From the NCBI GenBank assembly GCA_913777325.1, contig CAJYSA010000087.1:1-51788 (forward strand): a DNA stretch of 51,788 nucleotides, written 5' to 3'. Shown in pieces: positions 1,163 to 24,051 of this stretch. The notes beneath the pieces were generated by a model. It saw only the letters and a list, made by a program, of their open reading frames with translations, was not told the origin of the DNA and ran no database searches. A program made the position numbers and the translations under genes. Position 1 is the stretch's first letter. Each line of letters begins with the position of its first letter. Origin of the DNA: an uncultured Sphingomonas sp. Its GTDB lineage: Bacteria; Pseudomonadota; Alphaproteobacteria; Sphingomonadales; Sphingomonadaceae.

Positions 1163-2405
1163 CGATCCAGCGCGGCGCGGGGTCGCGGATCGCGCCATGG
1201 ATCAGCCACAGCATCGCCGCGCCACGCACGATCGCCGCCGCCAGAATGTCCGCCTGCGTCGCGGAGGGCCATGCGCCGTCCAGACCCGCGAAGAACCAGA
1301 ATTCGGCGAAATAGGCGGCGAGATCGCCTAGCAAGAACAGCGCCATGGCGCGCACGCGCGTCCCCGTCAGCACGATCATCGGCCACAGCCACAGGTCGAA
1401 CTGCGGCGAATAGACCTTGTTGGTCAGCAGGAACCACGCCAGCACCGGCATGAACAACAGCCAGGGCCGGTCGCGATGCCGGCGCCAGCCGACCGCGACG
1501 ATCGTCGCCGCGCCACCCGCGAACAGCACAAAGGACCAGAAATTGCGCGTCGGCAGGTCCGTCACCCACCAGTTGAACTGCGCCAGCAATTCCCACACGC
1601 TGGCCGCCGTCCCGCCCCGCTCACGCGAAAAGGCGTAGAATTCGCGCCAATTGTCGAACGCCACCACCGCGACCGGCACATTGACCGCACCCCACGCCAC
1701 CACCGCGACGATCACCAGCAACGCCGCGTCGCGAATGCGCCGCGGCCACGCGCGTCCGGCACGGAACAGCGCCGTCAGGCCCAGCAACGGCAGCATCAGC
1801 ACCGGGAACAGTTTCGCCGCGCCGCCCAGGGCCGCCAGCGCCGTCGCCTTCACCATCGCGCCACGCCGCGCCGCCAGCATGGCGGTCACCGCGAAGGTCA
1901 CCGCCAGCATGTCCCAATTGTGCCCCAGGTACAGCACCAGCGGCGGCGCCAGCGCCCAGCCATATTGTCGCCGCAGCCCCACGCCCGCGCCGCGCATCAA
2001 TTCCAGCACCGTGAACGCCAGCATCGCGTTGACCAGCGCGACCGCGTTCAGGAAATCGGCGGCATCCGCGCCGCGCCCGCCGATCACGCGTGCCAGCACG
2101 CCCTCGGCCCAGATCAACGCACCGGTCAGCACCGGATATTCCATCCGCGCCTGAAGGTACGGAATCTGCCCCGCCGCCACGCCGCGCAGCCCCCAGAACG
2201 GCACCGCATCGCTGTAACAGCCGGTGATATACTGCTCGGACCACGTCCAGCCGCCGCCGCAATGCGCCTTGAACGCCCAACCCAGCAGGCACGTCAACGC
2301 CAGCGCGATATAGGGGCCGTTCGGGCCAAGGCGATCGATCAGGCGCTGCACGGGGTTGATCCATGGCAAAGCGATCCGCTCTCGACAAGCCATGGATGCG
2401 AACAT
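1107..2405 (-). CDS. GT87/DUF2029-like polytopic membrane glycosyltransferase
   Basis: The 432-residue protein is strongly hydrophobic with roughly ten membrane segments, for example around YIALALTCLLGWAF, LAVTFAVTAMLAARR and AALLVIVAVVAWGAV. It carries an EYPVLTGALIW stretch resembling the F/Y-x-YPP loop of the GT87/DUF2029 family, which are polyprenyl-phosphate-sugar dependent (C-type) transferases in the inner membrane. Acceptor and sugar cannot be read from sequence. The start is uncertain: ATG 2405, ATG 2393 or an internal TTG/GTG near 2355-2372 are possible, and the choice affects overlap with the divergent radical SAM gene. The 3' end overlaps smc tail-to-tail by 56 bp. Confidence 0.7.
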   Translation of the reverse strand: MFASMACRERIALPWINPVQRLIDRLGPNGPYIALALTCLLGWAFKAHCGGGWTWSEQYITGCYSDAVPFWGLRGVAAGQIPYLQARMEYPVLTGALIWAEGVLARVIGGRGADAADFLNAVALVNAMLAFTVLELMRGAGVGLRRQYGWALAPPLVLYLGHNWDMLAVTFAVTAMLAARRGAMVKATALAALGGAAKLFPVLMLPLLGLTALFRAGRAWPRRIRDAALLVIVAVVAWGAVNVPVAVVAFDNWREFYAFSRERGGTAASVWELLAQFNWWVTDLPTRNFWSFVLFAGGAATIVAVGWRRHRDRPWLLFMPVLAWFLLTNKVYSPQFDLWLWPMIVLTGTRVRAMALFLLGDLAAYFAEFWFFAGLDGAWPSATQADILAAAIVRGAAMLWLIHGAIRDPAPRWIAIPRPSTPPPEDRPIPAG

Positions 2406-2416
2406 ACACCGAACGC

Positions 2417-3670
2417 ATGGCGCAGCTCGATGTCCGTCAAAAGCTGGAAATCCTGGCGGATGCCGCGAAATACGATGCGTCCTGCGCGTCGTCGGGCACC
2501 ACGAAACGCACGTCGGCGGACGGCAAGGGGCTGGGATCGACGGAGGGGATGGGCATCTGTCATGCCTATGCGCCGGATGGCCGTTGCATTTCGCTGTTGA
2601 AAATTTTGCTGACGAACAGCTGCATCTTCGACTGCCATTATTGCATCAATCGCAAAAGCTCGAACGTCCGGCGTGCGCGATTTACCGCGCAGGAGGTCGT
2701 GAACCTCACACTGTCGTTCTACCGCCGCAATTATATCGAGGGGCTGTTCCTTTCGTCGGGGATCATCAAATCCTCGAACTATACGATGGAGCAATTAGTG
2801 GAGGTCGCGCGCAGCCTGCGCGAGGATCATCATTTCCGCGGTTATATCCATTTGAAGACGATCCCCGACGCCGATCCCGAGCTGGTGCATCAGGCCGGTC
2901 TGCATGCCGATCGTGTGTCGATCAATGTCGAGTTGCCCACCGTCGGCGGGCTGAAGCGGCTCGCCCCCGAAAAGGACAATGACCGTATCGAAGGCGCGAT
3001 GCGGGACATGACCGACGCGATCACCGACACCACCGATGCGCGCAAACGCTACCGCTCCGCACCGCGTTTCGCCCCCGCTGGTCAGTCGACGCAGATGATC
3101 GTCGGCGCGGACGCGGCCACCGATGGCGACATCGTCACCAAGGCGTCGACCCTCTACGATCGCTTCGGATTGCGCCGCGTCTATTATTCGGCGTTCAGCC
3201 CGATCCCCGATGCGTCGAGCGTTCTCCCGCTGCAACGCCCTCCGCTGATGCGCGAGCACCGGCTGTATCAATCCGACTGGCTGATGCGCTTCTATGGCTT
3301 CCAGCCGCGCGAGGTGGTCGCCGCTGCCGACGACGCGACCGGGATGCTGCCGCTCGATATCGACCCCAAGCTTGCCTGGGCGCTCAAGTTTCGCGACCAG
3401 TTTCCGGTCGACGTCAATCGCGCACCGCGTGAGCTGCTGTGGCGCGTCCCCGGCCTGGGCGTGAAGGCGGTCAAAAGCATCCTGGCGGCGCGGCGCTGGC
3501 GACGGTTGCGGCTGGATGACGTCGCGCGTCTCACGGTGTCGATCGCGCGCGTCCGGCCCTTCATCGTCACCGAGGACTGGCGCCCGGTGACCTTGAGCGA
3601 TCGGGCCGAGCTCAAGCCACTGGTCGCGCCCCGCCCCGCGCGCCGACAACTGGAATTGTTCGGCGCGTGA
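2417..3670 (+). CDS. Putative DNA modification/repair radical SAM protein (TIGR03916 type)
   Basis: This 417-residue protein has the radical SAM cluster motif C69-x3-C73-x2-C76 (CIFDCHYC), which binds a [4Fe-4S] cluster and SAM, plus extra cysteines at 23, 48 and 57. The start KLEILADAAKYDASCASSG matches the family as I know it. The C-terminus carries a helix-hairpin-helix (VPGLGVKAVKSILAARR), a DNA-binding motif. The family is known to co-occur with DUF4130 proteins, here fused to UdgX two genes downstream. Its chemical reaction is unknown; a spore-photoproduct-lyase-like DNA lesion repair is an inference. ATG 2417 leaves no overlap with the divergent gene; ATG 2363 has a better GGGG ribosome-binding site and would add 18 residues. 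Confidence 0.88.
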   Translation: MAQLDVRQKLEILADAAKYDASCASSGTTKRTSADGKGLGSTEGMGICHAYAPDGRCISLLKILLTNSCIFDCHYCINRKSSNVRRARFTAQEVVNLTLSFYRRNYIEGLFLSSGIIKSSNYTMEQLVEVARSLREDHHFRGYIHLKTIPDADPELVHQAGLHADRVSINVELPTVGGLKRLAPEKDNDRIEGAMRDMTDAITDTTDARKRYRSAPRFAPAGQSTQMIVGADAATDGDIVTKASTLYDRFGLRRVYYSAFSPIPDASSVLPLQRPPLMREHRLYQSDWLMRFYGFQPREVVAAADDATGMLPLDIDPKLAWALKFRDQFPVDVNRAPRELLWRVPGLGVKAVKSILAARRWRRLRLDDVARLTVSIARVRPFIVTEDWRPVTLSDRAELKPLVAPRPARRQLELFGA

Positions 3671-3731
3671 GAATGAATCGCGGGTGAAACGGGGCGCCGC
3701 CTCGTGCGCTACGGCCACGAAGGAGATCGCC

Positions 3732-4217
3732 ATGGCCCATGCAGACATCTACGCCGACCTGAAGCGGGATCACGACAAGCATCGCGCAATGCTGAAGGAA
3801 TTGAGCGATTTGCGCGGCGAGCCGCAGAAGCGCCGCGATCTGTTCGAGGCGTTCCGGCTCGAGGTCCAGAGCCATGCCGCCGCGGAAGAAGAATCGCTAT
3901 ATGCCACGATGCTAGGTAAGCCGGACCTGCGCGACGACGCGCGCCATTCGGTCGCCGAGCATAAGGAGATCGACGATCTGATCGGCGAATTGCTCGACAT
4001 GGAGGCCGACGGCGCCGCGTGGGAAGACAAGTTCGCGCACCTGCGTCACCGCTACGAGCATCATATCGACGAGGAGGAGGAGGAGATGTTCCCCGCCGCC
4101 GAGGCGAAGCTCGATACGGCGACCGAGGAGCGGCTGGCCGAAACCTATGAGGAGCGCAAGCCCGCCGAACTGGAACTTGCCGGTGCCAATCCCCCCGGCG
4201 GCGACGATCGCGACTGA
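3732..4217 (+). CDS. Hemerythrin-domain (HHE) protein
   Basis: The 161-residue four-helix protein carries the spaced His/Glu ligands of a diiron hemerythrin: H14/H17, H48 and E52/E53, H72/H77, then H106, H110/H111 and E114 in an acidic run before MFPAAE. Hemerythrins bind O2, NO or iron, or sense redox state. The start at ATG 3732 follows an AAGGAGA ribosome-binding site (nt 3719-3725). The gene lies 61 bp after the radical SAM gene and 13 bp before the UdgX fusion, all on one strand, so co-transcription is likely. A role in buffering oxygen or iron for the radical SAM cluster is only an inference. The C-terminal tail is low complexity. Confidence 0.85.
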   Translation: MAHADIYADLKRDHDKHRAMLKELSDLRGEPQKRRDLFEAFRLEVQSHAAAEEESLYATMLGKPDLRDDARHSVAEHKEIDDLIGELLDMEADGAAWEDKFAHLRHRYEHHIDEEEEEMFPAAEAKLDTATEERLAETYEERKPAELELAGANPPGGDDRD

Positions 4218-4230
4218 TCGTTCGTCCCCG

Positions 4231-5628
4231 ATGCGCGCCGTCACGCTCCCCGCCCCCGATGACATGGATGCGTGGCGCGAGGCGGCGCGCGGGCTGATCG
4301 CGGAGGATGTGCCGCCGGACCGGGTGGTGTGGCAGGTGGGCAGCGCGCCGGAGGATCTGTTCGCGCTGTCCGCCGAACCCGCTGCGGCCCCGCCGGTCGA
4401 CGCCTCCGCCTTGCGGGTGTCGCGCGCGTTCATCGCGCTGGCGAACGACGTGGTGCTCCACCGGGATTCCGAGCGGTTCGCGCTGCTCTACACCTTGCTC
4501 TGGCGGCTTCGCGAGCACCCGCGGCTGGTCGAGGATCATGCCGATCCGCTGGTGCGGCGGCTGGACGGGCTGGCCAAGGCGGTGCGCCGCGACATTCACA
4601 AGATGCGGGCGTTCCTGCGCTTCCGCAGCGTCGCCGACGATGATGGCGACCGCTACGTCGCCTGGTTCGAGCCGGACCATCATATCGTCCGCGCCAACGC
4701 CGCCTTCTTCGTCAACCGCTTCGCCAGCATGCGCTGGTCGATCCTGACGCCCGAGGTGTCGGTCCATTGGGACGGCACGGCATTGCGCGAGGGGCCGCCC
4801 GCCGCCCGTGGCGACGCGCCGGAGGGCGATCCGATCGAGGAGGTGTGGAAGACCTATTACGCCAGCATCTTCAATCCGGCACGCGTCAAGGTGAAGGCGA
4901 TGCTGAAGGAGATGCCGCGCAAATACTGGAAGAACATGCCGGAAACCGCGCTGGTCCCGCAGTTGCTGGCCGGCGCGCAGGCACGGGAGAGCGGGATGAT
5001 CGAACGCGCGCGCGATCGGGTGGAGGTGGGCGGCAATGCTCAGGCGGCGTGGGAAGCGCTTCGCGACGAGGCGCTGGCCTGTACGCGCTGCCACCTCCAT
5101 CGTCCCGCCACGCAAACGGTGTTCGGAGAGGGGCCGATCGATGCCCCGATGATGTTCGTCGGCGAACAGCCGGGCGATCAGGAGGATCTGGCCGGCCATC
5201 CATTCGTCGGCCCGGCCGGGCAGATGTTCGATCGCGCGCTGGCGGCGGCGGGGATCACCCGCGCCGAGACCTATGTCACCAACGCCGTCAAGCATTTCAA
5301 GTTCGAACCCCGTGGCAAGCGCCGCATTCATGCCAAGCCCGACGCGGGCGAGATCGAGGCATGTCGCTGGTGGATCGAGCAGGAGCAGATGCTGCTGCGC
5401 CCCAAGGTGACCGTGGCGCTGGGGGCGACGGCGGCGCGCAGCCTGTTCGGCAAGGTGATGACGATCGGGCGCGAGCGTGGGCGTAAGCAGCGCCTCCCGG
5501 ATGGCGGCGCGGCATGGATCACCGTCCACCCCAGCTATCTGCTGCGGCTCCCCGACGAGGACGCGCGCACCACCGAATTCACGCGCTTCGTGGAGGATCT
5601 GAAGCTGGCGCACGCGGCACTGGCCTAG
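4231..5628 (+). CDS. udgX: DUF4130-UdgX fusion: uracil-DNA binding/excision protein
   Basis: The 465-residue protein has two parts. Residues ~1-225 match the DUF4130/TIGR03915 putative DNA-repair domain (KAVRRDIHKMRAFLRFR, YVAWFEPDHHI, RWSILTPEVSVHWDG, RKYWKNMPE). Residues ~265-465 are a family-4-like uracil-DNA glycosylase fold with GEQPGDQEDLAGHPFVGPAG and VHPSYLLR. The UdgX-specific loop KRRIH is intact at 363-367; in characterised UdgX the His forms a covalent bond to the abasic sugar after uracil removal. C-x2-C (CTRCHLH) plus later cysteines may hold a [4Fe-4S] cluster. ATG 4231 is chosen because the upstream extension overlaps the hemerythrin gene and has no family similarity. Confidence 0.93.
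   Translation: MRAVTLPAPDDMDAWREAARGLIAEDVPPDRVVWQVGSAPEDLFALSAEPAAAPPVDASALRVSRAFIALANDVVLHRDSERFALLYTLLWRLREHPRLVEDHADPLVRRLDGLAKAVRRDIHKMRAFLRFRSVADDDGDRYVAWFEPDHHIVRANAAFFVNRFASMRWSILTPEVSVHWDGTALREGPPAARGDAPEGDPIEEVWKTYYASIFNPARVKVKAMLKEMPRKYWKNMPETALVPQLLAGAQARESGMIERARDRVEVGGNAQAAWEALRDEALACTRCHLHRPATQTVFGEGPIDAPMMFVGEQPGDQEDLAGHPFVGPAGQMFDRALAAAGITRAETYVTNAVKHFKFEPRGKRRIHAKPDAGEIEACRWWIEQEQMLLRPKVTVALGATAARSLFGKVMTIGRERGRKQRLPDGGAAWITVHPSYLLRLPDEDARTTEFTRFVEDLKLAHAALA

Positions 5629-22068: not shown

Positions 22069-24051
<1,983 letters not shown>

Follow-up and report, generated by a model that had tools for sequence, protein, structure and literature searches.

A LexA-type box and an optional hemerythrin gene at a radical SAM/DUF4130-UdgX locus of an uncultured Sphingomonas

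The stretch of DNA analyzed here, hereafter the window (51,788 nucleotides of an uncultured Sphingomonas sp., contig CAJYSA010000087.1), carries at positions 2417-5628 the genes for a radical S-adenosylmethionine (SAM) protein, a hemerythrin-like protein, and a protein in which DUF4130 is fused to UdgX. Our results make it likely that this locus is a LexA-repressed SOS repair operon, composed of the radical SAM protein of the TIGR03916 family and the DUF4130-UdgX fusion, that has captured a stand-alone hemerythrin-like protein. A repair machine that requires all three parts is not supported by our data, which are better explained by an SOS operon that acquired an optional hemerythrin by capture. 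As far as the literature searched shows, the new element is this capture, which would put a hemerythrin under LexA; the pair and its SOS control are not new, because both are in print (PMC3765255 and PMC8565304).

The locus and its LexA-type box

The original prediction had assigned the three proteins to these families and had described their genes as adjacent on one strand, and both points held. All of the families are recognized above curated cut-offs (PF01814, TIGR03916, TIGR03915 and TIGR03914), and the three open reading frames (ORFs) are complete, co-directional and spaced as in an operon, with 61 bp between the radical SAM and hemerythrin genes and 13 bp between the latter and the UdgX fusion. 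The features of the locus are as follows.

2382..2387, + strand: position of a -35-like element as defined by relatives, here TCGACA, followed by a 17-nt spacer (column profile of 159 upstream regions)
2400..2414, + strand: LexA/SOS-type box GAACATACACCGAAC (GAAC-N7-GAAC), its end 2 bp upstream of the radical SAM start codon
2405..2410, + strand: position of a -10-like element inside the box, a weak TACACC here and of TATAAG type in relatives (column profile)
2417..3670, + strand: radical SAM protein, TIGR03916 family, 417 amino acids (aa), with CX3CX2C, a C-terminal helix-hairpin-helix (HhH) and further invariant cysteines C23, C48 and C57
3720..3725, + strand: likely ribosome binding site AAGGAG of the hemerythrin gene, upstream of the ATG at 3732
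3732..4217, + strand: hemerythrin-like protein, PF01814, 161 aa, with H14, H48xxxE52, H77 and H111xxxE115 as likely diiron ligands, roles inferred
4231..5628, + strand: DUF4130 (TIGR03915)-UdgX (TIGR03914) fusion, 465 aa, with GEQPG, KRRIH (His367) and HPSYLLR

The strongest functional clue at the locus, judged from sequence, is the putative LexA box, which the original prediction had missed and whose pattern GAAC-N7-GAAC we take to be the alphaproteobacterial LexA/SOS motif. Of 152 loci, 149 (a count in which repeats remain) have an exact match no more than 300 bp ahead of the radical SAM gene, mostly at -17, as opposed to 53 of 4457 control windows; the three misses are L045 and L088, which are a single genome counted twice, and L144. 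Left out of the 152 were L001-L003, L154-L183 (short repeats), and loci with less than 200 bp upstream or with truncated starts. Of 17 more loci at class level, 16 likewise have an exact box before the gene, the exception being L232. The box type changes with phylogenetic distance: among 30 loci sampled across the phylum, some from genomes already counted and all with flanks of about 1.5 kb, 22 carry the alphaproteobacterial type, six carry CTGT-N8-ACAG, presumably the LexA motif of beta/gamma type, and two carry neither (L251 and L266). All six loci with CTGT-N8-ACAG belong to the eight that were sampled outside the class, and at loci outside the class this pattern turns up in 7 of 104 windows in all, compared to 4 of 3035 windows of named family loci.

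The column profile of 159 upstream regions, from which the repeats L100, L088, L030 and L228 were left out, has T-T-G-A-C as its -35-like element, in which T and G reach 86% and the other positions are weaker, and then, after a spacer of 17 nt, TATAA within the box. In 120 of these 159 loci the start codon comes 2 nt past the box, which points to an mRNA with no leader or almost none. The hemerythrin genes that lie between the two partners (25 distinct loci, referred to here as cassettes) have no exact box of their own within 300 bp (0/25), nor do 37 free copies, that is, 31 of the 76 free copies of the family sample plus six from other families. Because of this lack, SOS control would reach the cassette hemerythrins through the radical SAM promoter, and at these loci the captured protein is probably SOS-inducible.

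We propose the following course of events. DNA damage would remove LexA, presumed to bind the box, and the promoter whose -10 element lies within it would become active; a leaderless or nearly leaderless mRNA, in our inference, would span all three genes. UdgX would cut out uracil and remain covalently bound at the abasic site through His367, while the HhH-bearing radical SAM protein and DUF4130 might act, as part of the same SOS/translesion response, on a damaged or trapped base; an SOS-inducible hemerythrin might clear peroxide or nitric oxide (NO), or buffer iron, during synthesis of iron-sulfur (Fe-S) enzymes.

A stricter form of the box, GAACRTAN4GAAC, occurs at seven sites in the window's genome, and the reversed pattern at one. 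Strict sites are found at the radical SAM operon, at a PA0069-family radical SAM gene and at an RmuC-like gene (NCBIfam match under the cut-off). Another precedes two small ORFs of 58 and 101 aa (L227:1501-2016), the 58-aa one without a Pfam match, which possibly encode SOS-induced small proteins, and a box at L225:1207-3014 separates an 88-aa ORF from a divergent one of at least 453 aa, the latter without a Pfam or NCBIfam match at E<=0.001. The window's second strict site, at 23266, falls within a 636-aa ORF and was taken as a chance occurrence. At L077:7255-8068, an opposite-strand gene splits the radical SAM and UdgX genes, and UdgX has an exact box at -22. A search of the first 9 kb of the window against Rfam returned no RNA element at gathering score, and a reading of the locus as a defence system was set aside, as PADLOC had no match for any of the three proteins.

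Occurrence of hemerythrin within the pair

The hemerythrin-bearing arrangement is a minority state. Of the 199 genomes in the family sample, 127 have both the radical SAM and the DUF4130 gene, and 10 of these have a hemerythrin gene between the two. Among named loci ranked by closeness to the radical SAM protein of the window, the best 80 of 593 confirmed include 75 with DUF4130 and 16 with hemerythrin in this position; one of these 16 repeats a family genome, and the distinct loci total 25. The smallest starred clade around the window on the radical SAM tree has 10 rows, two with hemerythrin (the window and L084) and eight without, and of the two other genomes sampled from the same genus, G155 lacks the gene at its locus. 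In the phylum sample, with its short flanks, hemerythrin stands beside radical SAM in the window's genome and in its genus mate G091 only. No hemerythrin match adjoins the radical SAM gene in any of the 21 class-level genomes with such a gene sampled outside the family, the contig of G242 being short; the nearest same-contig hemerythrin outside the family lies about 9 kb away, in G473.

These counts agree with the original prediction insofar as it had placed hemerythrin outside the standard pair, given that 117 of the 127 family genomes have none between the partners. They are at odds with its proposal of a single three-part repair unit, the hemerythrin being absent from the locus in these 117 genomes and in the eight clade rows; such an absence in close relatives was an outcome that the prediction itself had named as refuting it. 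The neighborhood survey that it had suggested, in search of a conserved hemerythrin, found that the gene is not conserved at this locus, and that its ortholog is present in 16 of the 199 genomes without a radical SAM gene.

Where the gene is present, its placement is rather regular. All 25 cassette hemerythrins are co-directional with the pair; 21 of them follow the radical SAM stop by 31-117 bp and the one in L076 by 254 bp, and the start of UdgX overlaps the hemerythrin stop codon in L035, L076, L078 and L086. The gap can also hold other ORFs, some of them on the opposite strand; these are for the most part not related among themselves, and none is found in more than one or two loci; because of this, and of the shared strand in 25/25, we regard the arrangement as real and recurrent rather than due to chance. 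Hemerythrin thus looks like an optional accessory of the pair, yet one that is integrated in the operon where present. Free copies of the ortholog lie in other surroundings: at L199-L202, L204-L210, L213 and L223 the genes nearby include a PLD-like gene, one for GTP cyclohydrolase I, or the two together, and further homes include Lon/HU and a GGDEF-EAL gene. In Azospirillum sp. TSA2s (L293:5737-6879), a TnpB-family gene is located between radical SAM and UdgX.

Weighing of the alternatives

Several observations speak against an SOS operon with a captured hemerythrin, and we gather them here. A strict sigma-70 scan called no consensus promoter at the window's box, where the -10 element is weak, and terminator-like sites numbered 0 compared to the 1.7 expected from shuffling, an absence that says little. 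The strict box pattern alone is no proof of SOS control, because it occurs within the 636-aa ORF mentioned above and also about 190 bp upstream of an S2 ribosomal protein gene. One free hemerythrin gene has a one-mismatch box when mismatches are allowed. Among 18 UdgX genes located apart from radical SAM or behind an insert, an exact box was found only in L077, so that SOS control is not retained for every UdgX gene. In L042, L092 and L139 the radical SAM-hemerythrin gap measures 442-499 bp and contains a small ORF, and in L094 two extra genes lie between hemerythrin and UdgX. As for activity, the sole match of the cassette hemerythrin profile in the PDB at E<=0.01 is 6q09 (E 2.3e-11, positions 6-142), the nearest solved structure and yet a distant one, which we take to be the hemerythrin-like protein (HLP) of M. 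kansasii. PMC8913304 describes that protein as an NO peroxidase with weak catalase activity, and stresses that the ligands of mycobacterial HLPs are unlike those of other HLPs; because of this difference, transfer of its activity to the cassette protein is unsafe.

In the alternative closest to the original prediction, hemerythrin would protect or supply the Fe-S cluster of the radical SAM enzyme, and the three proteins would carry out one reaction at UdgX-trapped sites. The recurrent, always co-directional insertion in 25 distinct loci would fit such a triad, as would the purifying selection on hemerythrin (dN/dS of 0.045-0.24 in nine pairs, six cassette, one mixed and two free, with some dS values near saturation). 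The ortholog, defined by a score of at least 140 bits with the cassette hemerythrin profile, is present in 86 of the 199 genomes and is also commoner where a radical SAM gene exists (70/128, including G116 with a fragment under the family cut-off) than where it does not (16/71; Fisher p 1.2e-5), a test that ignores kinship and that we therefore do not use as proof. In the cassette-bearing genera g22, g78 and g82, one genome without a radical SAM gene also lacks the ortholog. However, hemerythrin is missing between the partners in most family genomes and in most of the nearest clade rows, does not adjoin radical SAM in the class-level genomes outside the family, and survives in the 16 genomes without a radical SAM gene; eight genera (g5, g9, g15, g33, g43, g62, g67 and g70) include both a genome with radical SAM and a free hemerythrin and a genome with hemerythrin only. 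Distances between cassette hemerythrins follow those of the radical SAM protein poorly over the 25 cassettes (r 0.32, reached in 41 of 2000 permutations; 0.48 with DUF4130), compared to 0.76 for radical SAM and UdgX, and relatives with 45-48% identity are found, among the matches listed, in Fusobacterium and Acetoanaerobium, which are anaerobes. We consider such a triad quite improbable. A related and bolder possibility, that the same diiron hemerythrin was repeatedly recruited into the sphingomonad SOS operon and that its control of peroxide/NO or oxygen would serve oxygen-sensitive radical SAM repair, appears unlikely to us.

It is also conceivable, although we are inclined to doubt it, that hemerythrin is a neutral passenger, a common gene in a spot that tolerates inserts and kept for a job of its own outside the SOS response. 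Unrelated genes, some of them on the opposite strand, do occupy the same gap, and the ortholog has the other homes listed above; hemerythrin, however, is by far the most frequent occupant of this gap in the loci examined, always in the direction of the pair, and the overlap of UdgX with its stop codon in four loci argues for integration. A different question is whether, instead of being inserted repeatedly, the gene entered once early in the family's history and was then lost many times, a scenario that we entertain tentatively but do not favor. On the hemerythrin tree (62 rows, 25 cassette and 37 free) the cassette copies do cluster, with a starred group of 18 cassette copies and one free copy, and G195 has an ortholog in the same chromosomal neighborhood with the pair missing (L187). 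Against it, hemerythrin state changes 14 times on the radical SAM tree (five forced by starred branches; 149 rows, a quick method, with L100, L088 and L030 left out as repeats) and cassette state six times on the hemerythrin tree (three forced), counts that on either tree do not separate gains from losses, and the congruence of hemerythrin with the radical SAM protein is weak. An SOS operon with an optional, captured hemerythrin thus remains our preferred reading, and L038 (with hemerythrin) and L130 (without), a starred pair on the radical SAM tree, offer in close relatives a natural comparison for asking whether an oxygen-labile enzyme of DNA repair benefits from a diiron protein.

Related systems and properties of the proteins

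In 20 of the 102 loci with enough flank, a count that left out the repeats L100, L088 and L030, the pair has an ImuB-like gene on one side and a DnaE-type gene on the other, and in one representative of each examined with Pfam the flanking genes encode a Y-family polymerase-like protein with DUF6504 and a DNA polymerase III alpha-type protein. We take these neighbors, from such features, to be of ImuB and DnaE2 type, so that the two gene types of the ImuB-DnaE2 mutagenesis cassette enclose the pair there; they adjoin none of the 25 hemerythrin-bearing loci, however, some of which have short flanks. The TIGR03916/DUF4130 pair is widespread, and its near-universal LexA-type box, the other LexA motif in most of the genomes sampled outside the class and the ImuB/DnaE placement provide a firm basis for experiments on a role of the pair in translesion synthesis or base repair. 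We assume that COG4277 corresponds to the TIGR03916 radical SAM family. In the accessible part of PMC8565304, a COG1573-COG4277 operon with a uracil-DNA glycosylase (UDG) is SOS-regulated in Bacteroidetes, and SOS regulation of such a UDG and COG4277 system is said to be reported in Verrucomicrobia and Alphaproteobacteria as well. That operon resembles our locus in joining a uracil-DNA glycosylase to a partner gene under LexA control, and differs from it in that hemerythrin is not mentioned in that part of PMC8565304. An association of DUF4130, radical SAM and uracil-DNA glycosylase was predicted in 2013 to be related to mutagenesis, and the part of PMC3765255 available to us labels the radical SAM protein SplB-like and does not name hemerythrin.

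The SplB likeness found no support in our comparison, which was a weak test given the narrow profile: hhalign gave a probability of 4% to the genome's own PA0069-family protein, and the 21 PDB matches of the same narrow profile (E up to 10) included no protein of the spore photoproduct lyase type. The window's radical SAM protein scores 570.2 bits against TIGR03916 (rSAM_link_UDG; cut-off 343.5). Its CX3CX2C motif (C69/C73/C76) is invariant in 48 of 48 aligned sequences, as are C23, C48 and C57 on its N-terminal side, which could possibly form a second cluster or a catalytic site. HHH_3 matches 47 of the 48 (E<=1), the window's own match, at E 0.0013, being under the Pfam cut-off. The protein may act on DNA by radical SAM catalysis; the Creative Commons-licensed literature searched yielded no report of the reaction of the TIGR03916/DUF4130 pair. 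The same literature gave no joint mention of UdgX with radical SAM, or of UdgX with hemerythrin.

The window's hemerythrin scores 72.9 bits against PF01814 (cut-off 25.3), and H14, H48, E52, H77, H111 and E115 are invariant in all 25 cassette hemerythrins, L042 having been ended at its own stop codon for this alignment. Two more specific assignments were rejected: the persister hemerythrin PA2171 (NF053874) was matched with 54.9 bits, far under the equivalog cut-off of 190, and the Fe-S repair protein RIC (TIGR03652) had no match at E<=0.001 in the window's protein; TIGR03652 does match 14 of the 25 cassette relatives weakly (best E 2.4e-5). On a plasmid of Paracoccus aminovorans (L287:4001-8786), radical SAM, UdgX and a catalase gene are found in close succession, an arrangement we do not use as a parallel to hemerythrin because it is seen in one of the eight annotated plasmid regions that show what follows.

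As for the fusion, its two parts score 223.8 bits against TIGR03915 (cut-off 112.25) and 315.8 bits against TIGR03914 (cut-off 189.95). UdgX structures in the PDB (6ajo, 6io9 and others), of which we take 6ajo and 6io9 to be from Mycobacterium smegmatis, are matched at E 1.3e-48 and share with the window the KRRIH loop and GEQPG; unlike the M. smegmatis protein, the window's UdgX is fused to DUF4130 and has HPSYLLR as motif B. The latter is one position off the form HPS(S/A)(L/V)(L/V)R published in PMC10359453, according to which UdgX excises uracil and bonds to the abasic site via His109 of the KRRIH loop. Three more UDG-superfamily matches exist in the window's genome (L282-L284), and UdgX is therefore not its sole enzyme of uracil type. 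Across the phylum sample, DUF4130 was found in 30 of 30 loci and UdgX in at least 21, a lower bound given the short flanks. In six of the 8-kb class-level loci (L231, L232 and L234-L237), DUF4130 stands beside radical SAM without a UdgX match, which suggests radical SAM and DUF4130 as the core pair, with UdgX as an add-on.

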